Shown: positions 1,470-11,269 of the stretch, one piece after another
Layout: each line of letters begins with the position of its first letter
Numbering within the stretch: position 1 is the first letter of the stretch
Assembly (NCBI RefSeq): GCF_000340965.1
Contig: NZ_ANAY01000003.1
Span: forward strand, 186,001 to 250,000
DNA: 64,000 bases
Source of the DNA: Nocardiopsis kunsanensis DSM 44524
GTDB lineage: Bacteria; Actinomycetota; Actinomycetes; Streptosporangiales; Streptosporangiaceae
Reading direction: 5' to 3'
Notes under the pieces: model-generated
The model's database searches: none
The model's input: only the letters and a program-made list of their open reading frames with translations
Told to the model about the DNA's origin: nothing
Program-made: the position numbers and the translations under genes

Positions 1470-1982
1470 CATGACCTCCGTGGGAGATGGGGGAGCCCCG
1501 CCCGGAGAACGGGGTTCGTGTTCCTGCTCGGTGCCGGTGCGGCGGGTCGGGTGGGTGATACGTCGGGGCGCCCCGCGGGCAGGGGCCGGTTCAGGGCACA
1601 GCACGGGCCGGACGGGCGCGGGCCCCGCCACGGGCGCCTTCGGGAACTTCGCCTGTGAACAATATACATAAAGTATGAAAATGTCGCTAACAAATATTAC
1701 TCAGAAGCCTTGTGCACTCCACCGCGCGGAGCGTGCGCCTGCGGGGCGCCGAGCGCACGCCGGCACGAGCGGCTCCCGGGTCGGCAACACCGGCAGCACC
1801 GGCAGCACCGGCACACGGGCGGCCTCCGGGAGGCCCCGCAGGAGCGCGGGCGTTCGCAGGCTCGCCCCTCGACCGCACCGCACGCGCGGGGAAAAGCCTC
1901 GCCGGCCCGGAAACCACCACGTGTTGACGGCGCAAACACTCCGACACTGTGAGTGAACCCCGAACACGTGTACTGTGCACAC
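1470..1982. other. Divergent intergenic region with AT-rich patch and short tandem repeat
   Basis: No convincing gene. Three copies of a 9-mer (consensus CAGCACCGG) lie at 1785-1811. An AT-rich patch at about 1660-1712 is unusual for this GC-rich DNA and may hold the promoter of the leftward gene. Open frames here have poor codon structure and are not called. Confidence 0.5.
1968..1982 (+). promoter_or_regulatory. Leaderless promoter and imperfect palindrome before the HTH-methylase gene
   Basis: TACTGT at 1971-1976 fits an actinobacterial -10 box (TANNNT). It ends six bases before the ATG at 1983, which suggests transcription starts at the A of the start codon and gives a leaderless mRNA; no ribosome site precedes this ATG. 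The same bases form an imperfect palindrome (GTGTACTGTGCACAC, arms GTGTnC/GnACAC). A repressor bound here would cover the -10 box, and the encoded protein has its own HTH, so autoregulation is possible. That last step is inference. Confidence 0.45.
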
Positions 1983-3635
1983 ATGGACTCCCGCGCCCGC
2001 AGCACCGAGGACCAGCAGGTCACCGCCGCCGACATCGCCCGCCTCGCAGGCGTGACCCGGGCAGCCGTCTCCAACTGGCGTCGGCGGTACGAGGACTTCC
2101 CCGCCGCAACCGGCGGCACCTCCTCCAGCCCGCTGTTCGCCCACGGGGACGTGCGTGCGTGGCTGGAACACCACGACAAGGTCGGCGAGGAGTCGCTGGA
2201 GGTCCAGCTGTGGCACCGCCTGCGCGGCAGCCACCCCCAGCACATGGCCACCGCTCTGGCCGACCTCCTCCAATACCTGGACACCGGGGCCCGGGGCGGG
2301 CTCGACGAACGCTCCGTGGAACTCGTCGACACGCTCACGCGGCAGGAGGGCCCCGCCCAGCTCTCCCGGGCCCTGGCCGAGAGGTTCAGCGCTTCCAGCG
2401 AACGTTCCGGAACACCCGTGGTCTCCACCGGTGCTCTGGTGCGGGCGGTCTCCGCCCTCACCGACACCGCCGCGGCCACCGTGTTCGACCCGGCCTGCGG
2501 AACCGGGTCGCTGCTGCTGGCCGCCGGCGCCCCCCACGCGCGCCGGGTGGGCCAGGACCTGGACCCCGACGCCGCGCGGCTGACCGCGGCCCGCGCCTCG
2601 GTCGAGGGCCACTCCCCCACCGAGGTGAGCACCGGCGACTCCCTGCGCCGGGACCAGTGGCCCGAACACCGCGCCGCCCTGGTGGTGTGCGATCCTCCCC
2701 CGCCCACCACCGACTGGGGCCGGGAGGACCTGCTCATGGACGCCCGTTGGGAACTGGCCCTGCCGCCCAAGGCCGAGAGCGAGCTGGCCTGGCTCCAGCA
2801 CGCCTACGCCCACACCGCTCCGGGCGGACAGACGGCCATGGTGCTGTCCACCTCCTGCGCCTACCGGCGCACCGGTCGGCGTATCCGCTCCGAGCTGCTG
2901 CGCCGCGGCCTGCTCACCGACGTGATCGCCCTGCCCGCCGGTCTGGCCGCCACCCACGCCCAGCCCGTGCACCTGTGGCTGCTGCGCAGGCCCGACGGCG
3001 AGGAGGGCGCGGCCGGCGCGGTCCGCATGTGGGACCTCACCCAGTACCCCGCCGAGGGCCCCTGGGAGCTGGAGGGGGCGCCCACGGCCGAGGTCCTTCC
3101 CATCGACCTGCTCGACGACGAGGTCGACCTGAGCCCCACCCGGCACGTGGCTCCCGACCTGGAGGACCTGCCGGAGGTCTACACCCAGGCCAGGGACGAA
3201 CTGCGCCGCCTGGTCGCCGAACTCGCCGAGGCGCTTCCCGAGCTCGCGCCGGGGTCGGCCGAGCAGCTGGGCCCGCAGGTGCGGGTGGCCGACCTGGCCG
3301 ATGCCGGGCTGGTCGACCTGGAGGGCACGGCACCGCGGTCCACGGACGGTCGTGTGGACACCGACTACCTGCGCGGTTTCCTGCACAGCGCGGCCAACAC
3401 CCGGCGCTCGACCTCGGCGAGCGGCACCCACCGGACCGAGGCCCGTTCGGCCCGGGTGCCCCGGATGAGCACCGAGGAGCAACGGCGCTACGGGGCGGCC
3501 TTCCGTGCCGTGGCCGAGTTCGAACGCCGGGCCAAGGAGCTCTCGGCGCTGGCCGAGCGTGCCGCCGAGCTCGGCCGGGAAGGGCTGACCTCGGGGATGC
3601 TCGCGCCGCGGGAGGATGGGGAGGATGCCCGCTGA
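1983..3635 (+). CDS. HTH-containing N6-adenine DNA methylase-like protein with altered catalytic motif
   Basis: 550 residues. An N-terminal helix-turn-helix (about residues 14-36, DIARLAGVTRAAVSNWRRRY) precedes a class I methyltransferase core of the N6_Mtase (HsdM-like) type. The AdoMet-binding motif DPACGTGSLLLA is at about 169-180. Motif IV, normally [N/D]PP[Y/F/W] in adenine methylases, reads DPPPP at about 237, so the aromatic residue that stacks on the flipped base is replaced by Pro. The C-terminal third (from about 400) is helical and resembles the end of HsdM-type subunits. I recall similar HTH-methylase proteins in many actinomycetes with NPPF at this site; this copy may bind DNA and AdoMet without methylating. 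The start at 1983 is preferred to an upstream ATG at 1953 because of the -10 box. Two further genes follow on the same strand. Confidence 0.75.
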   Translation: MDSRARSTEDQQVTAADIARLAGVTRAAVSNWRRRYEDFPAATGGTSSSPLFAHGDVRAWLEHHDKVGEESLEVQLWHRLRGSHPQHMATALADLLQYLDTGARGGLDERSVELVDTLTRQEGPAQLSRALAERFSASSERSGTPVVSTGALVRAVSALTDTAAATVFDPACGTGSLLLAAGAPHARRVGQDLDPDAARLTAARASVEGHSPTEVSTGDSLRRDQWPEHRAALVVCDPPPPTTDWGREDLLMDARWELALPPKAESELAWLQHAYAHTAPGGQTAMVLSTSCAYRRTGRRIRSELLRRGLLTDVIALPAGLAATHAQPVHLWLLRRPDGEEGAAGAVRMWDLTQYPAEGPWELEGAPTAEVLPIDLLDDEVDLSPTRHVAPDLEDLPEVYTQARDELRRLVAELAEALPELAPGSAEQLGPQVRVADLADAGLVDLEGTAPRSTDGRVDTDYLRGFLHSAANTRRSTSASGTHRTEARSARVPRMSTEEQRRYGAAFRAVAEFERRAKELSALAERAAELGREGLTSGMLAPREDGEDAR

Positions 3636-3714
3636 GGCGCCGCAGATTGCGGCTTCCTCACCGTGGTTGTAGCGTGCCGTCGGCGTCACCACGAACGGCC
3701 GAGGAGGGGCGACC

Positions 3715-4227
3715 CTGTCGCTGGATCACAACGGGCACCAGGGCCACTTCGGTGAACATTTCACCGGTGTACTGGCAGCCGCAGCGGGACTGACGGTAGC
3801 CAAACCGGTCCCGGACTGCGACGGGATCGACCTGACCATCGGATACCCCGGCCGCCTCGGGCACCTCCGCCACCCCGCGATCCAGGTCCAGGTCAAGTCC
3901 TGGAGTGTTCCGGCGGGGTCAGGGAGTCACTGGAACTACAACGGGCTCTCCGAAAGGCAGTTCAACACCATCGCCGGCCGTGATCTCCGCATTCCGCGTT
4001 TCCTCGTTCTGGTCGTGGTCCCTCCCGAGCAGTTCGATTACGCTCATGCCGATCATGAGGCGCTGCAGCTGAGCCATGCGGCGTACTGGGCCTCCTTCCA
4101 CAACCATGCTTTGGTGGAAGCGGACAGTGCCACCAGGAGACACCGGGTCGAGATCCCCAAGGACAACTTGTTGACCCCCAAGGTCCTCCACGACCTGCTC
4201 GTCTTCGACCCGGAAGCGGAGGGTTGA
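3715..4227 (+). CDS. DUF4365-like protein with an apparent CTG start codon
   Basis: About 170 residues. The frame opens after a stop at 3670 and contains no ATG, GTG or TTG before the conserved core. The only plausible initiator is CTG at 3715, with GAGGAGGGG centred about nine bases upstream. The core includes GHFGEHFTGVLAA, DGIDLTI, a PAIQVQVKS strand and RFLVLVVVPP. This fits DUF4365, which has a PD-(D/E)xK nuclease-like layout (acid in DGID, QVK as the third motif). The gene ends by a one-base TGATG overlap with the next gene, so the two are probably translationally coupled. Nuclease activity is inferred from the motif pattern only. Confidence 0.65.
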   Translation: MSLDHNGHQGHFGEHFTGVLAAAAGLTVAKPVPDCDGIDLTIGYPGRLGHLRHPAIQVQVKSWSVPAGSGSHWNYNGLSERQFNTIAGRDLRIPRFLVLVVVPPEQFDYAHADHEALQLSHAAYWASFHNHALVEADSATRRHRVEIPKDNLLTPKVLHDLLVFDPEAEG

Positions 4228-5375
4228 TGAACCACGAGAATGTTGCGCCCCCCGCAGAGGTCCCTGTCCCCGAGCAGGTCTCCGACTACCTGTACTCACG
4301 CGGGTGGCGCCGCGAGCCCGAGAGCTGGCGCGGCTCACAGGTATGGACCTGGCCCGAGGTTCCTGACGAGCAAATCTTGTTGCCGCCCCGCTTGGAGTAC
4401 CGCGACGACCGTGAATTGGTGCTGCGGGCCCTGTATGCCCTGGCCCGGTTCGAGGGCCGGGATCTTCACGGCCTGTTCCGAGCGATCTCCCGGCCGTGGG
4501 TGGACACCCAGTACTTCCACACGCATCCGCCCTCGCCCTCGGGCACCGTGCCCCTGCTCTCAGGGATCAACGCACTGGAGGGTGTGCGCGGTGCCTTCAC
4601 CTCGGCGGCGCAAGCCGTTCTGGACCACCGCTTCCGTTCGGGCCGTGGGCGCAACTCCAAGGACGTGGACGCCTTCTTGCGGTGCGTGCGGCTGGGTCCC
4701 AGTACTGCGGGCAGCTACATCCTGTCCGCGGAAGTCCCGCTCACCCCACCCCGGACAGACCAGCTCTTCCCCGAACCTCCTCAGGAACGCAGGGTCGTCC
4801 GAGCGATGCACCGGGCGGTGTCCGCTGCGCAAGAGGCCACTGCTGCCACTGAAGAGGCCGAGGAGCGTATGGACGCCTTCGACGAGGCGATGGGCTCGGG
4901 GGTCTCCTCCCGGTTGTGCGAGTCCCTCGCCCAGTTCGGAGGGCACGGTCACGACCAGAAGTTCTCGATCCGGTTCGCGTGGTCCCCGTCGCATCCTGAG
5001 GAGTCCGCCCGGGCGGACGACCACTTCTCCTTCGGTCCCCGAGCCGCCAGGATCCTGCAACGCGCCGGGGCGCGCCTGCGCGAACTGGAGCACGCGGGCA
5101 CGGTCCGCATGAGCGGCCAGGTCGTGGGCGCCGAACGCCACTCCCCCTCCCACGACGGCTTCGTCAAGGTGCAGGGGACCCTCTCCACCGGTGAGGGCGC
5201 ACGGGAGCGCACACTGTTGGTGCGCCTGCGCTCCGAGCACTACGAGGCCGCTCTGATCGCGCACTCCAACGGTGATTTTTTCGAGGCGGAGGGCCGGTTG
5301 AGTACCGGCAACCGCCGTGAGCTCGTCCCCCACCAGGTATTGATCGCCGGCAGGCTTCTGCAGGATCCCGCCTGA
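4227..5375 (+). CDS. Hypothetical protein with possible C-terminal OB-like domain
   Basis: 382 residues. The ATG at 4227 overlaps the stop of the DUF4365 gene. The N-terminal 110 residues are rich in Trp and Leu (QVSDYLYSRGWRRE, ELVLRALYALARFEGRDL), a style often seen in actinobacterial accessory proteins. A central helical, Glu/Ala-rich segment (about 190-230) may be a coiled coil. The last 90 residues alternate strands (VRMSGQVVGAERH, FVKVQGTLSTGEG, RTLLVRLRS) and could form an OB- or S1-like fold. No catalytic motif was recognised. Tight coupling to a possible nuclease downstream of an HTH-methylase suggests a three-gene defence or DNA-processing module. Family unknown. Confidence 0.6.
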   Translation: MNHENVAPPAEVPVPEQVSDYLYSRGWRREPESWRGSQVWTWPEVPDEQILLPPRLEYRDDRELVLRALYALARFEGRDLHGLFRAISRPWVDTQYFHTHPPSPSGTVPLLSGINALEGVRGAFTSAAQAVLDHRFRSGRGRNSKDVDAFLRCVRLGPSTAGSYILSAEVPLTPPRTDQLFPEPPQERRVVRAMHRAVSAAQEATAATEEAEERMDAFDEAMGSGVSSRLCESLAQFGGHGHDQKFSIRFAWSPSHPEESARADDHFSFGPRAARILQRAGARLRELEHAGTVRMSGQVVGAERHSPSHDGFVKVQGTLSTGEGARERTLLVRLRSEHYEAALIAHSNGDFFEAEGRLSTGNRRELVPHQVLIAGRLLQDPA

Positions 5376-5444: not shown

Positions 5445-6164
5445 CTACTGGTGAACTGCCGCGCGCAGGAACGGCGGGCTGAGCAGCCGGGCCGGGCCCG
5501 GCCGGTAGAGCGCGGCCGGTCTCCCCGCGGGTTGGGGGCGTTGTTGGCCGGTGGGTTCGACAAAACCGTCCGCTCTGGTGACTTTACGGCGGAAATTGCT
5601 GGGGTCCAGCGGTAGGCCCCAGACCAGTTCGTACACGTGGCGTAGTTCGGTGAGGGTGAAGACGTCGGGGCAGAAGGCCGTGGCCACGGTGGTGTACTCC
5701 AGCTCGCCGCGCACCCGTTCCAGAGCATCGGTGACGATGCGGCCGTGGTCGAAGGCCAAGGCGTCCGGAGTGGCGAGCAGCTCCTCCACCGGCGCCCAGT
5801 AGGCGTGCGCGGCATCGGTACCTCCCCGCGGTACGGGAAGGTCGGGGCCCAGCGCCAGGTGGGCGATGGTGACGACCCGGCCGCGCGGGTCCCGGCCGGG
5901 ATCTCCGTAGGCACCGAGCTGTTCGAGGTGCAAACGGCCCGGATCGACCCCGGTCTCCTCCTGCAATTCCCTCTGCGCTCCTTCGCCCAGGGTCTCGTGG
6001 GATCTGACGCGGCCCCCCGGTAGTGCGGCCCTTCCGGAGAAGGGTTCCTTCCCCCTGTCGATGAGCAGCACGGCCAGTTCCCCGTTCCTGATCGTGAAGA
6101 TGGCCAGGTCCACCGTCACCAGGGACAGCTCGACCCCGACAGCTCCCGTCAAACGGTCGTCCAT
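5445..6164 (-). CDS. nrtR: NrtR-family transcriptional regulator (Nudix plus winged helix)
   Basis: 239 residues. A Nudix domain fills the N-terminal 150 residues, with a complete Nudix box at 51-73 (GRVRSHE...RELQEETGV). A C-terminal winged-helix segment follows (about 165-200, FTLTELRHVYELVWG...FRRKV). NrtR proteins sense ADP-ribose and repress NAD biosynthesis or recycling genes; most have lost hydrolase activity, but here the box looks intact, so it may also hydrolyse. The C-terminal tail is basic and Pro-rich. The gene is divergent from the membrane/phosphorylase operon, and two matching palindromes lie between them, so local control of that operon is likely. An ADP-sugar pyrophosphatase acting as an enzyme only is the alternative. 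Confidence 0.8.
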   Translation of the reverse strand: MDDRLTGAVGVELSLVTVDLAIFTIRNGELAVLLIDRGKEPFSGRAALPGGRVRSHETLGEGAQRELQEETGVDPGRLHLEQLGAYGDPGRDPRGRVVTIAHLALGPDLPVPRGGTDAAHAYWAPVEELLATPDALAFDHGRIVTDALERVRGELEYTTVATAFCPDVFTLTELRHVYELVWGLPLDPSNFRRKVTRADGFVEPTGQQRPQPAGRPAALYRPGPARLLSPPFLRAAVHQ

Positions 6165-6257: not shown

Positions 6258-7985
6258 ATGTTGCATGCACCCCCAGGTCAGATCGGCTCCACACCCCCCA
6301 CCGACGCCACACGGCACATGTGCGCGGGTGTCTACATCGACGAGAGATTCCGCGACCTCGTCATCTCGGAGGTCTGCGTCAACCCTTCACGCAGGGTGGC
6401 CCCCTCCTACGGCTTCGACCTCGTGCCCGTGATGCGCCACGCCTGGTGGGCCGCACACTTGTCGGCGGCAGTGCGGACCGCTCTCCTGATGTGCGTCGCG
6501 GTCCCCTTCGCGCTGGGGCACACCGCGGCGGGGGCCATGACCACGTTCGGGCTCGTCCTTCTGCTGCTGGCCGACCGGGCTCTTGCACTGTCCACAGAGC
6601 TCGCCGAGGTGGAGAAGGAAACGCTCCCCAGGGGAAAACGCAAGCGTCAGCGCATGTTCCTGCCCACGAACAACCGATCCCGACGTGAACTGGTGCATCA
6701 GCTCAAGCGCACCGGAACACTCGCGGCCTTCCTCGTGCTCCTCACGTGCGCGCTCGGGGCCGGCTCTCCCCGACAGGCCGTCCTGGCGGGTGCCCTGTTC
6801 GGCTCGGTGGTTCTCGTGGCCGTCCTGGCGGGGTCCCTGCGCCAGGTCCGGATCAACCGGGTGCACGCAGAACACCAGTTGCGCCCGAAAAACCTCTCGC
6901 ACCGGGAGGAGGTCGTCTCCGAACAGCAGGACCACCCCTGTGTGATCCACCGCAGGCCCGAGCACAGGGGCGAGGAGGACACGGACGAGGACAAGAGCGT
7001 TTTCACCCTCTTCGGCCAGGAGTCCCCTTTCATCGGGGCCGGAGAGCTCGTCCACCAATGGAACCCGCCCATGAGCGTCCAACTGCTGCGACCCGGCACG
7101 GACACGCTCCCGCTGCACCAACGCGAACACAGAAATCCACCTTTTGCCGCACACGAACTGGTGGAACATCTGAACGAGGCCGTCCTGGACCTGCGCAACG
7201 ACGAAGAACACGTGCGCCTACCGGTCGAGGTGCGCGACCGCGTCTACGTGGCCGAGCCCCGCGCCTCGACGGACCGCTCCCTGCTGGCCGGGCCCTTGGA
7301 CCGGGCAGAGATGCGCCGCATCATCGACCACCAGAGCCCGGACCGTCAGCACTTCCTCGAAGTCAGCGTCCCCGACGCCGGCGCAGAGCTCGTGGCCACC
7401 GTCCTCCTCCAGGTCGGTGTCCAGGGCCGTACTCTCAGCCTGGCCTTCGCGGCGTGCGCCCTGACCCACACCCCCGACAGTTTCCACAGGGCCGATGAGT
7501 TCGGGCAACAGGGCAAGCGTGCCGTCGTCGCGGCCGGGGCCGCCTCCCTGTTCGCTCTCCCGCAGGAAACAGCCAGGATCCCGCTCCTGGCCCGCTACCT
7601 CTACGTCCTGGCGCGCTCCGCGCGGTTCTTCCGCCGCGAAAGAACCCTGAAACCGATCCGCAACGTCTCCATCAGCAGTCACCTGAGCATCCGCCAAGAG
7701 CAGGCCCAGAAATGGAGCAAGGTCCAATTCGACCGGACCCACATACTCCGTCACATGAAGAACGTCGAGCTGCGCCTGCTCACCGCCACCAGCGATTTCC
7801 TGCAGTCCAAGGGCGTGGACATCTCCGAGTTCGACGACCGAGCCACGCAGATCATCAACAGCGGGGTCCTCAATCTCGGCGGCACAAACGACTTCACCAA
7901 CACAACCTTCGGCGACCAGGCACAGGTACAGAACCACGGCTCCGCGCAGCCGTCCGGCAACCACCAGAACGGAAACACGACATGA
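6258..7985 (+). CDS. Four-helix membrane protein with C-terminal amyloid-like signalling motif
   Basis: 575 residues. Four hydrophobic segments at about 72-89, 92-112, 153-170 and 175-195 form two hairpins with a basic loop between them. A long soluble region follows (about 200-530) with no enzyme signature I recognise. Residues 534-562 carry a Gly/Asn/Gln-rich motif (core GGTNDFTNTTFGDQAQVQN), repeated almost exactly at the N-terminus of the next protein. Paired tags of this kind couple receptors to effectors in bacterial amyloid-type signalling (BASS) systems. A GGAGAGGGA element lies about 12 bases before the ATG. The stop overlaps the next start (ATGA), so the products are made together. 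A membrane sensor or pore partner for the phosphorylase protein is my inference. Confidence 0.65.
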   Translation: MLHAPPGQIGSTPPTDATRHMCAGVYIDERFRDLVISEVCVNPSRRVAPSYGFDLVPVMRHAWWAAHLSAAVRTALLMCVAVPFALGHTAAGAMTTFGLVLLLLADRALALSTELAEVEKETLPRGKRKRQRMFLPTNNRSRRELVHQLKRTGTLAAFLVLLTCALGAGSPRQAVLAGALFGSVVLVAVLAGSLRQVRINRVHAEHQLRPKNLSHREEVVSEQQDHPCVIHRRPEHRGEEDTDEDKSVFTLFGQESPFIGAGELVHQWNPPMSVQLLRPGTDTLPLHQREHRNPPFAAHELVEHLNEAVLDLRNDEEHVRLPVEVRDRVYVAEPRASTDRSLLAGPLDRAEMRRIIDHQSPDRQHFLEVSVPDAGAELVATVLLQVGVQGRTLSLAFAACALTHTPDSFHRADEFGQQGKRAVVAAGAASLFALPQETARIPLLARYLYVLARSARFFRRERTLKPIRNVSISSHLSIRQEQAQKWSKVQFDRTHILRHMKNVELRLLTATSDFLQSKGVDISEFDDRATQIINSGVLNLGGTNDFTNTTFGDQAQVQNHGSAQPSGNHQNGNTT

Positions 7986-8092
7986 ATCAGCAGACCCCGG
8001 GCAACAACAGCGGCATCGTCAATGCCGGCGGCACCAACAGCTTCACCAACACAACCTTCGGCGACCAGGCACAGGTACAGAACCACGGCTCC
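7892..8092 (+). repeat. 52-bp perfect direct repeat encoding the shared tag
   Basis: Bases 7892-7943 and 8041-8092 are identical over 52 bp and sit 149 bp apart. They encode the common FTNTTFGDQAQVQNHGS segment in two different genes. The surrounding motif is 25 of 29 residues identical. Identity at third codon positions indicates recent duplication or gene conversion keeping the tags matched. Confidence 0.85.
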
Positions 8093-8920
8093 CCGCACGC
8101 AGCACCGCCCGCGGAGGTAGCTGCCTCTACCGGCGCCCAGGAGACACAGCAGCACCGCGACGTGGGTATCGTGACGATCCTTCCCGGGGAGATGCGGGCC
8201 GTGGTCGACCGCTTCGGGCTGCGCCGCTCCCACAAGATCGAGGACCTCTTCTTCAGTACCGGCCGGGTCACGACCGAGAGCGGAGACGTCTCCGTGGTCG
8301 CGACCCGGACCCTGGCCCCCGGGCAGAGGTCGGTCATGTCCGCTCTGGAGAACCTGCGCACCCACTTCGCACCGCGTCTGTGGCTCCTGGTGGGCATCGG
8401 CGGCAGCCTGCATCACAAGCAGGTACCTATCGGCAATGTCGTCGTCTCCACCCGCGTGGTCTACTACGACTCCCGAAAGATCGAGGAGGGCGGCCACGTT
8501 CAGCCCCGTGGCGAAGAGCGAGGCGCTCCGGCGCGCGTCATGCACGCCGTGAACGCCTACTTCACCGACCACGGCGAACCAGCGGCGATCCGCGGCCAAG
8601 CGGAAGGGCACAAGAAACGCACCTTCGGAGTCGTACCGGGTCTGATCGGCTCGGGAGAAGCAGTGATCGCCGCACGGGACAGCTCGGTGCGCAGTTATCT
8701 GAAGCACTACAACGACAAGGTCCTGGCCGTGGACATGGAGGCCGGCGGGCTGAGCCAGTACTGGCAGGAAAACTCCGTCGGCACAGCCCTCAACCCCGGC
8801 TGGGTCGTGGTGCGCGGCATCTCCGACAACGCCGACAAGGAAAAGAACGACGACAGTCACGACCTGGCCGCTCGTAACGCGGCCCATGTCGCAGCGGAGC
8901 TCCTGCCCTACCTGTGCTGA
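7982..8920 (+). CDS. Nucleoside phosphorylase-superfamily protein with N-terminal signalling motif
   Basis: 312 residues. Residues 9-37 hold the tag shared with the upstream membrane protein; a Pro/Ala linker follows. From about 60 the protein is a PNP_UDP_1 (purine/uridine phosphorylase, MTA/SAH nucleosidase) domain: DVGIVTILPGEM, LWLLVGIGGSLHHK, IGNVVVSTRVVYYD, DMEAGGLSQYW and VVVRGISDNAD. The Met-Glu pair and the Asp of RGISD correspond to the ribose-binding Glu and catalytic Asp of the family. Such domains act as toxic effectors in bacterial and fungal NLR-type immune proteins. It is encoded in a four-base overlap with the membrane protein and followed 51 bp later by a further membrane gene. 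Substrate unknown; nucleotide or NAD depletion is a guess encouraged by the NrtR neighbour. Confidence 0.8.
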   Translation: MNQQTPGNNSGIVNAGGTNSFTNTTFGDQAQVQNHGSPHAAPPAEVAASTGAQETQQHRDVGIVTILPGEMRAVVDRFGLRRSHKIEDLFFSTGRVTTESGDVSVVATRTLAPGQRSVMSALENLRTHFAPRLWLLVGIGGSLHHKQVPIGNVVVSTRVVYYDSRKIEEGGHVQPRGEERGAPARVMHAVNAYFTDHGEPAAIRGQAEGHKKRTFGVVPGLIGSGEAVIAARDSSVRSYLKHYNDKVLAVDMEAGGLSQYWQENSVGTALNPGWVVVRGISDNADKEKNDDSHDLAARNAAHVAAELLPYLC

Positions 8921-8971
8921 ACCACCCGGAACATGTTCTGTCGGCCCCACCCCACGACGACGGGAGCTCCC

Positions 8972-9616
8972 TTGACCGCTTTCTTCTTGGGCGTACTCAG
9001 CTCCGTTTCGGCCACCGCCCTGGTATGTGCGGCGGGGTGGGCCCGAGCAGGCAGGCCACGCTGGTGGCTGGTCGGGCTGTTGGCCCGCCTCACCGGCACC
9101 GGCATCTCCCGGGCCTACCGCGAGCAGCGCTCGGCCGAACCCGACCTGGCACGTGAACTGGCGCGAGCACGGTGGGTGAAGGTCCTGACCGGGCGCGGCA
9201 ACACACTCACCCGGGACACCTTCGCCCCCGTTTGGGCCGACGGGGGCGTCCCGGTCCAGGTCCTGCTTCCGAATCCGGATGAGGAGCCGGACACGTGGCT
9301 GGAGCGGCGCGAGGAGAGACTGGCCCGGACCGATCCCGGGTTCGGTCCGGGCCTGTTACGCTCCCAGATCCGCGCCAATCTGGCGTACCTGACCCACCTC
9401 GCCCGGCAGTACCCGGCCGTGGACCTGAGGACGTTCGACCTGCCCCACATCTTCCGGCTCATCGTCACCGACCGGGGTGCCCATCTGACCTTCTACGGCG
9501 AGCACGCTCACGGGCGGCACTCGCCCTGTCTGTTCCTACGGCCCGGCGGTGCACTGTACGAGGCGGTCCTGGGCCTGTTCGAACTCATTTGGGCCACCGG
9601 GGCACCGCACCGCTGA
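8972..9616 (+). CDS. Membrane-anchored protein with DUF5919-like (PLD-fold-like) domain
   Basis: 214 residues from a TTG start with GGGAG six bases upstream; an in-frame ATG at 8933 lacks such a site. One or two hydrophobic helices at the N-terminus (MTAFFLGVLSSVSATALVCAAG) precede a cytosolic domain. The domain has PVQVLLPNPDEE, a long Arg-rich helix, then HIFRLIVTDRGAHLTFYGEH and a SPCLFLRPGGALYEAVLGLFELIW ending. That order resembles DUF5919, a phospholipase D-fold-like domain in actinobacterial regulators and effectors, though no complete HxK motif is visible. It closes the three-gene set with the phosphorylase protein and may be a second effector or membrane partner. Moderate certainty on the gene, low on function. 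Confidence 0.6.
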   Translation: MTAFFLGVLSSVSATALVCAAGWARAGRPRWWLVGLLARLTGTGISRAYREQRSAEPDLARELARARWVKVLTGRGNTLTRDTFAPVWADGGVPVQVLLPNPDEEPDTWLERREERLARTDPGFGPGLLRSQIRANLAYLTHLARQYPAVDLRTFDLPHIFRLIVTDRGAHLTFYGEHAHGRHSPCLFLRPGGALYEAVLGLFELIWATGAPHR

Positions 9617-10185: not shown

Positions 10186-10487
10186 AACGTGCTGGAGACG
10201 GTGCTGACCAGCCCGATGTGCTCGGTGGCCCTGCTCATGGCCGACAGGGCGGTCAGTGGTTCGAGGAACCACCACGGTCCGCCGGCGACGTCTCCCGCGG
10301 CGTGGCCGTCGGCGAAGAACACCGCGTCCAGAAGGCCGCGTTCGGCCGTGCGGGCCAGCTCCTCGAAGTAGGTGATGTCACCGACCCGTTCGGCCGGGGA
10401 ATCGGGGTGGCGCCAGGCGGCCTTGTGGTGTCCGCAGCCGAAGATGAACAGGTTCAGGTGGAGCGGGCGCTCGGAGGCGGTCGCCAT
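10059..10487 (-). pseudogene. Truncated NtaA/SnaA/DszA-type flavin-dependent monooxygenase
   Basis: The 5' end is intact: ATG at 10487 overlaps the SDR stop (TGATG). The product begins like FMNH2-dependent NtaA/DszA monooxygenases (LNLFIFGCGHHKAAWRHP, GLLDAVFFADG, LASLDHISGGRMGWNVVTS). About 130 residues remain of a normal 430-450. At about 10100 the sequence switches into the antisense strand of the duplicated RelE segment, adding some 13 foreign residues before a chance stop. The enzyme must be inactive. It was the second gene of the TPP-riboswitch operon, so thiamine-linked oxidative chemistry is the likely lost function. Confidence 0.8.
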
Positions 10488-11269
10488 CAGTTCATCACCA
10501 GCCCGCCGTCGACGACGAGGTTCTGTCCGGTGACCGCGCGCGCCCAGGGTGAGGCGAAGTACAGGGCCGCGTCGGCGAATTCGGCCGGGGTGACGACCCG
10601 GCGCAGCGGTGTGCCGGCGGCGATCTGGTCGAAGACCTCCTCGGGGGTGGCGGAGCTGGCGTCGGTGGTGCGCAGCAGGCCCCCGGAGACCATGTTGACG
10701 GTGATGCCGTCGGGGCCCAGATCGTGGGCGAGCGTGCGGGTCAACGACAACAGCGCCGCCTTGGCCGCGGTGTAGTCGTGGTAAGGCACGACCGGGTGCT
10801 GGAACAGGTTGGTGCCGACGTTGATCACCCTGCCGGCTCCGCGGGCGCGCATGCCGGGCAGGGCTGCCTGGACGGTGTTCAAGGCGCCGTGGACGGTCCC
10901 GCTGAACTGCTGGTCGAGGTCGCGGGCGGTGAGGGTGTCGGCGTGGGGCCGTGCATCGCCGTTGAAGGAGAAGTCGGCGAGTGCGTTGTTGACGACGGTG
11001 GTGACCGGGGCGCCGAAGTGGTCCTCGGCGGCCCGGACCATCGCGGCGACCTGTTCGGGGTCGCGGACGTCGGCCCGCACGGCCAGGGCACGGTCGGGGC
11101 GGGTGGCGGCGAGTTCTCGGGCGGCCCCGGCGCTGGTGAGGTAGTTGATCACCACCCGGGCACCTTGGCCCAGGAAGGCCCGGACCAGATGGGAACCGAG
11201 CCCGCGGGCCCCGCCGGTCACGACCACGGTCTGCTGATCGATGGGGATCGCAGTATGGGGGGAACTCAT
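10487..11269 (-). CDS. Short-chain dehydrogenase/reductase under TPP riboswitch control
   Basis: 260 residues from the ATG at 11269, which has AAAGG six bases upstream; an ATG 18 bases earlier is less well placed. Classical SDR features: TGGARGLGSHLV for NAD(P) binding, the catalytic YTAAK motif and a C-terminal VDGGLVMN. A TPP-type riboswitch lies just upstream. The next gene, a truncated flavin monooxygenase, overlaps it by one base. SDR genes of unknown role in thiamine-regulated operons have been noted by comparative genomics (I recall the label oarX). A reaction on a thiamine precursor or breakdown product is plausible but unproven. Confidence 0.8.
   Translation of the reverse strand: MSSPHTAIPIDQQTVVVTGGARGLGSHLVRAFLGQGARVVINYLTSAGAARELAATRPDRALAVRADVRDPEQVAAMVRAAEDHFGAPVTTVVNNALADFSFNGDARPHADTLTARDLDQQFSGTVHGALNTVQAALPGMRARGAGRVINVGTNLFQHPVVPYHDYTAAKAALLSLTRTLAHDLGPDGITVNMVSGGLLRTTDASSATPEEVFDQIAAGTPLRRVVTPAEFADAALYFASPWARAVTGQNLVVDGGLVMN

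Follow-up and report, generated by a model that had tools for sequence, protein, structure and literature searches.

A 64,000-nt stretch of the genome of Nocardiopsis kunsanensis DSM 44524 (the window) contains two overlapping genes, designated A and B, that encode a four-helix membrane protein and an enzyme of the nucleoside-phosphorylase (PNP) superfamily and that bear the same short tag, at the end of A and near the beginning of B. Comparison with other genomes (loci are labelled L and a number) gives good support to a family of such pairs, in which membrane protein and partner carry matching tags of several types. Protein A is probably a membrane sensor that recruits or seeds an exchangeable effector through the homotypic tag, the whole serving as an immune or cell-death module.

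Genes A (575 residues) and B (312 residues) overlap by four bases, and residues 534-562 of A align without gaps to residues 9-37 of B with 25 of 29 identical, in agreement on both counts with an earlier reading of the same DNA (the original prediction). The match scores 140, compared with a mean of 28.8 and a maximum of 52 for 500 shuffles of the head of B (composition-preserving, 500 per locus here and below), and so chance is an unlikely source of the similarity. At the DNA level the tag is a direct repeat of 96 nt with 90% identity (7853-7948 and 8002-8097), and the same codon is used at 23 of the 25 identical residues. Searched against the 5.3-Mb genome at E 0.01, a tag profile found just two places, the tags of A and B in the window; as the profile was built partly from these, the informative part is the lack of further places. 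The tag is 25-30 residues long with Gly and Asn at regular spacing, and the Pfam matches of the two proteins at E 1 include no amyloid-motif family. In the structural model of A, the predicted local distance difference test (pLDDT) falls below 50 at residues 542-575, residues 534-539 of the tag being the end of the last helix; in that of B, residues 1-50, including the tag, have a mean pLDDT of about 40-53 per block and stand apart from the enzyme. The possibility that the tag is a piece of an ordinary folded domain, which the original prediction had named as speaking against it, is therefore ruled out for both models, apart from the first residues of the A tag.

The pairing of a matched tag on adjoining membrane and PNP proteins is conserved across genera. 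B (P0002) was matched in 25 of 100 genomes at E 1e-10, its own genome counted, and occurs patchily within the genus (11 of 39 other genomes at E <1e-50). Within the family, a profile of A matched 160 of 341 genomes; the figures were 51 of 394 for a sample of the class and, with a wider A profile, 9 of 246 for a sample of the phylum, two of these lying outside the class. Two sets of loci were compared, which overlap (Nocardiopsis salina, for example, is in both) and whose counts are not additive. The first consists of 80 regions around the stronger A matches plus the window: 61 with A and PNP, 17 PNP-free (L151-L167) and three dropped because gene A is split over frames (L045) or was not matched (L051 and L053); L108-L167 were selected from the strongest matches, not at random. 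The second consists of 80 loci (L169-L248) gathered with a 15-row A profile, from genera that include Nocardiopsis, Streptomonospora, Streptomyces, Actinomadura, Nonomuraea, Lentzea, Micromonospora and Actinoplanes; PNP is present in 75, and 74 were tested for the tag, L211 (the same broken locus as L045) and the non-PNP loci L227, L240, L244, L247 and L248 (at a contig end) being excluded. L244 gave no tag match. In Nocardiopsis eucommiae, the source of the broken locus, both gene A and its PNP neighbour are split over several frames; in relatives the two are intact.

The match between A and its own PNP partner exceeded all 500 shuffles in 59 of the 61 A+PNP loci of the first set and in 69 of the 74 of the second. 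The first-set exceptions are L148 and L137; gene starts were taken from open reading frame calling, and that of the L137 PNP gene is mis-set, with loss of the tag and a score of 18. Homologues thus retain both the tag and the neighbour, whose absence from most genomes was the other outcome that would have counted against the original prediction. Its suggestion of a profile search with the tag for other adjacent pairs was followed: in 197 genomes of the class at E 0.001 there were 8 places, all within four A/B pairs, and in 60 relatives at E 0.01 there were 25 places, of which 22 fall within gene A or gene B, although many of the loci matched had also contributed to the profile.

A single tag had been envisaged; the tag is present, but there are really several types, matched within loci and found with several types of partner. 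By eye at least seven different tags can be distinguished, each borne by both partners, such as GGTNxFTNTxFGDQA in the window, GGQNHNSNVVGDGAHV (L038), GATFHGGRHSFSGSTFGSGDI (L047-L049), NHYGHxVxGDMHD (L052) and SIRGxNVGVN (L054). Over 61 rows, the scores of A tags with the tags of their own B proteins sum to 5065, whereas the highest sum among 20,000 partner permutations is 3276, the observed sum partly reflecting shared descent of both tags. Among four genomes with two pairs each, three show own scores of 66-148 versus cross scores of 18-31.

Partners other than PNP also occur. Every one of the 17 PNP-free first-set loci has a downstream gene with a similar N-terminal tag (whole partner proteins were compared), with scores of 54-83 that lie above all shuffles in 16; the own scores sum to 1265, compared with a permutation maximum of 1032 (the partner gene of L163 itself was used, not its extra tag copy), and the own partner is the best in 13 of the 17 rows. 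These partners are small and helical-looking, some of them weakly DUF5955-like below the Pfam cut-off and some with two tags. In Asanoa iriomotensis (L227) the tag of the partner precedes bDLD3 (3.4e-12), a Death-like domain of bacteria, and the gene that follows encodes a GT4-conflict glycosyltransferase (8e-127) that ends in bDLD3 (1e-19) and has no PADLOC match at E 1e-5; this locus reads as a putative receptor, adaptor and effector in sequence. Among 11 later loci, a tagged partner that outscores all 500 shuffles is present in 8 (including L302, which lies on the same contig as L247 of the second set). Two new types of partner appear, with a CAP12/Pycsar TIR domain (CAP12-PCTIR_TIR, 2e-27) or EAD1 (8.4e-15).

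Tags were also seen in other settings. A sister layout in the same genome (L053, 9042-12951 on contig C44) and in L051 consists of a Nudix gene, a tagged PNP gene with a helical C-terminal stretch and, after these, a gene for an N-terminally tagged membrane protein; the tag match is weaker (50 and 52) and was equalled by 2 and 1 of 500 shuffles, respectively. In L301, a gene start at 10213-11001 that reads as STAND-type by eye has another N-terminal tag (GPARIYQAGRDQHFHYGD), 3 kb from an A/TIR pair and on the opposite strand. Stand-alone frames of about 50 residues, barely more than a tag, occur on the minus strand in three genomes of the same genus, at about 1916-2068 in L274, near 6941 in L275 and near 6424 in L276, among similar-looking neighbours that seem plasmid- or integrative-element-like by eye, in one case on the 29-kb second contig of a two-contig assembly. 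Family scans of selected neighbours were uninformative, and when one of these frames served as the query, only the first two (L274 and L275) were recovered as stand-alone frames. Such proteins are possibly decoys or adaptors.

Several observations weigh against specific matching within every locus. For the commonest class of tag, NSGVxNxGGxxxIxxSAVGxxAxV, own partners score no better than those of other loci; the own partner is the best-scoring in just 23 of the 61 rows; and in the fourth genome with two pairs (G115), both of the commonest class, the own scores (54 and 59) and cross scores (53 and 52) are indistinguishable. The own score was surpassed by 1-4 of 500 shuffles in five loci of the second set and reached by two shuffles in the PNP-free locus L167, and three of the 11 later loci (L295, L298 and L299) have no tagged neighbour. 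The comparison with PNP partners covered the last 75 residues of A and the part of B before the enzyme, and is blind to other tag positions. Finally, the codon identity in Nocardiopsis means that the match there may partly be due to recombination rather than selection.

The model of protein A is confident (mean pLDDT 88.7, predicted template modelling score 0.86) and has helices at residues 55-85, 89-122, 142-169 and 171-204; by hydropathy, hydrophobic stretches lie at 64-119 and 149-201, and a weaker pair at 366-403 is modelled as strands. The predicted four-helix membrane protein is thus borne out, as is the absence of an NLR from the layout: none of 80 reading frames of A, a few being fragmentary, has a Walker A motif, and no NTPase family was found in the A proteins scanned, those of the window, L153, L155 and L164. 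Nothing rose above the Pfam cut-offs for A, and neither NCBIfam nor PADLOC gave a match at E 1. Comparison with PDB sequences yielded none better than E 0.25, and Foldseek comparison of the model with the PDB was likewise negative at E 0.001, the best E being 0.095; the top 50 included several proteins of START/Bet v1-like type, all of them insignificant, which were not used. Directly upstream of A in L153 (5101-5877, 258 residues) and L154 are matching genes; the L153 protein has no Pfam match, and its start appears cyclase-like by eye only.

Protein B has the predicted nucleoside-phosphorylase domain, as judged by Pfam (PNP_UDP_1, E 2.8e-15, 56.8 bits with a cut-off of 25.1) and by a structural model, the making of which had been proposed. 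The fold is of PNP_UDP_1 type, and its best Foldseek match is 4x24, an MTA/SAH (methylthioadenosine/S-adenosylhomocysteine) nucleosidase of Vibrio, with a template modelling score of 0.78 by target length and 0.60 by query length. E70, E253 and D282 are invariant across 37 sequences, and a profile of these B relatives aligns with MTA/SAH nucleosidase motifs at the three acids. Glu12 and Asp197 are listed as mutated sites in the PDB titles of nucleosidase structures. Together with Glu174, these are the catalytic acids of the nucleosidases, at whose positions E70, E253 and D282 lie. PADLOC assigns B to its PN-superfamily Effector (2.6e-25). The genome has three further PNP_UDP_1 genes. A phage-borne form of B was considered and rejected, with no match at E 1e-5 among 50,697 phage records.

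In the mechanism proposed for these proteins, A would be embedded in the membrane, its large soluble domain and its C-terminal tag exposed to the cytosol (the topology being inferred), and would act as the sensor of a presumably antiviral module. Upon a putative trigger, the A tag would dock onto the matching N-terminal tag of B and probably template its assembly, on the supposition that the tag is amyloid in nature; B would be clustered at the membrane and its nucleosidase thereby activated, and the activated enzyme may deplete an adenine nucleotide, the candidate substrate being adenosine triphosphate (ATP) by analogy with PNP effectors. Expression would be governed by an NrtR-type Nudix protein through a palindrome upstream of A. 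In relatives, TIR proteins, small helical proteins and Death-like or EAD adaptors would be coupled to the same receptor family by receiving the tag of the receptor. Because A is constant while its partners, with effector and adaptor domains of conflict systems, vary, it is likelier that A is the input and B the output.

An alternative that is unlikely, yet the strongest of those considered, is that the tag is a static homotypic binding element, such as a small beta-roll, which would merely hold the enzyme at the membrane and would not template amyloid. Its length and its regular Gly and Asn would suit such an element, and the evidence for templating is that of sequence matching; on the other side, the length, terminal position and pairing of the tag are as in amyloid signalling motifs (PMC12261475), and fungal PNP proteins use a prion-like tag that has been tested in vivo (PMC9815663). 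A reversed polarity, with B as a sensor or maker of a messenger and A as a membrane-damaging effector triggered through the tag, appears rather improbable. SLATT proteins are themselves membrane effectors. In some systems, those with two transmembrane segments (2TM) occur alongside effectors related to nucleotides, PNPase among them (PMC7159879), and pairs with bacterial amyloid signalling sequences (BASS) have the C-terminal tag on a membrane-targeting BELL protein and the N-terminal tag on an NLR (PMC7889193). In the family described here, however, it is A that remains constant and that has a large conserved soluble domain, whereas its partners carry effector or adaptor domains (TIR, PNP, bDLD3 and EAD1). 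It is very doubtful that the genes are a housekeeping operon for salvage of nucleotides or nicotinamide adenine dinucleotide (NAD) under NrtR control, with an irrelevant tag. NrtR-type regulators function in NAD metabolism, and the solved structures nearest to the PNP fold are MTA/SAH nucleosidases; but B is patchy even within the genus, the genome has its three other PNP_UDP_1 genes, the neighbours are of defence type, TIR, EAD1 and bDLD3 occur as partners and the tag has diversified. That the tags are a functionless, recent tandem duplication of a low-complexity end, as the 96-nt repeat, three tandem copies in L163 and the high codon identity in Nocardiopsis might suggest, is scarcely credible, since tags of other genera match at the protein level with different codons (L124, L132 and L123), dissimilar types are matched in their own loci and composition shuffles are exceeded; the codon counts rule out a pure duplication artefact as the sole explanation.

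The codons also bear on how matching is maintained between a sensor A and its effector. In nine Nocardiopsis-group loci (of 11; L040 and L043 carry another type of tag), the A and B tags of one locus have a mean DNA identity of 0.89, compared with 0.74 among orthologous A tags and 0.73 among orthologous B tags. The own A-B identity exceeds that of A with the B of any other locus in seven of the nine; in the window, the identity of the B tag is 0.894 with the B tag of L041 and slightly lower, 0.879, with the A tag of its own locus. Between receptor and partner in L163 (7838-8148) there are three tandem copies of the tag with a period of 128 bp, which look like a frozen unequal-recombination event. 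Such copies, together with the high DNA and codon identity of own tags, suggest that recombination copies the tag between neighbouring genes in Nocardiopsis. In other genera, identical residues often differ in codon (the codon is shared at 2 of 14 in L124, 2 of 13 in L132 and 4 of 17 in L123), and these differing codons make it seem that constraint at the protein level also acts on the tags outside Nocardiopsis. Overall, the same codon is used at 661 of 1023 identical tag residues within loci (0.65), versus 0.50 across loci.

A broader interpretation may be offered tentatively, as a possibility somewhat short of an even chance: that A belongs to a large family of non-NLR membrane immune receptors whose C-terminal tag is a plug-in barcode, making an effector of any output (PNP, TIR, small helical protein, Death-like or EAD adaptor) with the N-terminal counterpart; that mutually silent types of tag let several pairs coexist in one cell; that recombination between adjoining tag copies helps to keep the pairs matched; and that plasmid-like elements may carry tag-only proteins of about 50 residues as decoys.

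The features of the locus are listed in Table 1. The Nudix regulator was missing from the gene list of the original prediction; a relative is present in 70 of the 80 second-set loci and is divergent from A in 66 of the 70. The palindrome GTCA-N2-4-TGAC is a probable NrtR-type operator upstream of A; among 67 Nudix/A intergenic regions, 43 contain it, with 49 sites in all (shuffles gave a mean of 0.48 sites for the whole set and a maximum of 4). The third gene of the predicted module, gene C, proved to be real and linked, being conserved in a 7-row alignment with a relative in 42 of the 80 loci, but its supposed DUF5919-like identity found no support, there being no match in Pfam, NCBIfam or PADLOC at E 1.

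Table 1. Features of the tagged gene pair and its immediate surroundings (positions in the window)
Feature	Position	Strand	Basis
Nudix and winged-helix (NrtR-type) regulator, divergent from the tagged genes	5445..6164	-	Pfam NUDIX 6.5e-18, NrtR_WHD 4.7e-17
Probable NrtR-type operator, TTAAAGGTCAACTTGACTTAAA	6174..6195		GTCA-N2-4-TGAC palindrome
Gene A, proposed sensor, a membrane protein of four helices tagged at its C-terminus	6258..7985	+	model, family scans
Four long membrane helices of A (residues 55-204)	6420..6869	+	model and hydropathy
Soluble domain of A (residues 215-540), alpha/beta and helical, without a fold match	6900..7877	+	pLDDT mostly >90; Foldseek against PDB
Tag of A (residues 534-562)	7857..7943	+	alignment, profile, model
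Gene B, N-terminally tagged phosphorylase-superfamily enzyme, proposed effector	7982..8920	+	Pfam, PADLOC
Tag of B (residues 9-37)	8006..8092	+	alignment, profile, model
Nucleosidase/phosphorylase domain of B (residues 61-308)	8162..8905	+	conserved acids, Foldseek
Gene C, accessory protein with N-terminal hydrophobic stretch, family unassigned	8933..9616	+	relative in 42/80 loci

The surroundings look like those of a defence module. Next to the tagged genes in the window (1953-5375) are a type I methyltransferase-like gene and a gene with a PADLOC candidate-defence match, PDC-M02B (2.6e-114). In six loci, 8 of 8 neighbour proteins had PADLOC matches, which is no measure of enrichment because the proteins were selected by eye; outside the window they include DruE, JetC2, MkoC, a PD-T4-6-like kinase with a DruE-like helicase, a second methyltransferase and Cas3-HD. 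On a Streptomyces plasmid, gene A, split over three frames, accompanies the Nudix gene and a gene for PNP (profile E 1e-114), and the tags are alike, with a score of 64.

The tagged pairs of A and its partners point to an unnamed type of bacterial immune signalling, and a literature search, with most subscription journals outside its coverage, found no paper on the receptor A family. Its natural types of tag would be a ready panel for studying how signal specificity and insulation evolve, and recombination between adjoining tags would be a concrete route by which receptor and effector could co-evolve. The Detocs PNP is an ATP-cleaving enzyme (PMC11249213), and B resembles effectors of this kind in its family and its PADLOC match; Detocs is a two-component-type system with no tag mentioned in the available part of its description, and ATP cleavage by B would be an analogy. 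Similarly, bDLD and EAD adaptor domains link exchangeable effectors that include PNPase, TIR and GT4 (PMC8195603), and two tagged partners carry bDLD3 and EAD1; those are folded domains, whereas the tag is short and unfolded-looking, and the accessible descriptions of these systems do not mention receptor A.

Amyloid signalling motifs offer a close parallel, being short, terminal and paired (PMC12261475, PMC7889193). The tag, as known from sequence and models, is likewise short, terminal, Gly/Asn-rich, self-matching and unfolded in the models, and that of the window has G-D-Q-x-x-V in common with the fungal GDQN motif (PMC12261475), which is a resemblance only. BASS1-10 are motifs of 20-40 residues common to adjacent genes, mainly in filamentous actinobacteria and cyanobacteria, and are also found on TIR and CHAT proteins (PMC7889193, PMC8086366). 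The BELL-NLR pairs that bear them share with the A/partner pairs a short motif common to proteins of adjacent genes (found here in 59/61, 69/74 and 16/17 loci); but the BASS receptor is an NLR and A is a membrane protein without one, the BASS motif is N-terminal on the receptor and C-terminal on the effector whereas the tag is at the C-terminus of the receptor and in the N-terminal part of the partner, and PNP is the commonest partner found here. In the fungal PUASM system, a PNP_UDP effector is coupled to a NACHT NLR through an amyloid motif, with foci and prion behaviour in vivo (PMC9815663). The likeness to A and B is that of a PNP_UDP effector tied to a receptor by a motif; the differences are that PUASM is fungal, has the pattern FxGxGxQxxGxGxF, carries its motif C-terminally on the PNP protein and also in NLRs, and has an NLR as receptor. 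The novelty that the original prediction saw in the layout appears to hold for the lack of an NLR and for the C-terminal tag of the sensor with the N-terminal tag of the effector, but a PNP effector with an amyloid motif has a fungal precedent, with NLRs. Within the literature examined, amyloid-type immune signalling of both bacteria and fungi has so far been tied to NLR receptors; if the proposed role of A and its partners is true, short homotypic tags would be a more general wiring of bacterial immunity, with the opposite polarity and with exchangeable outputs.

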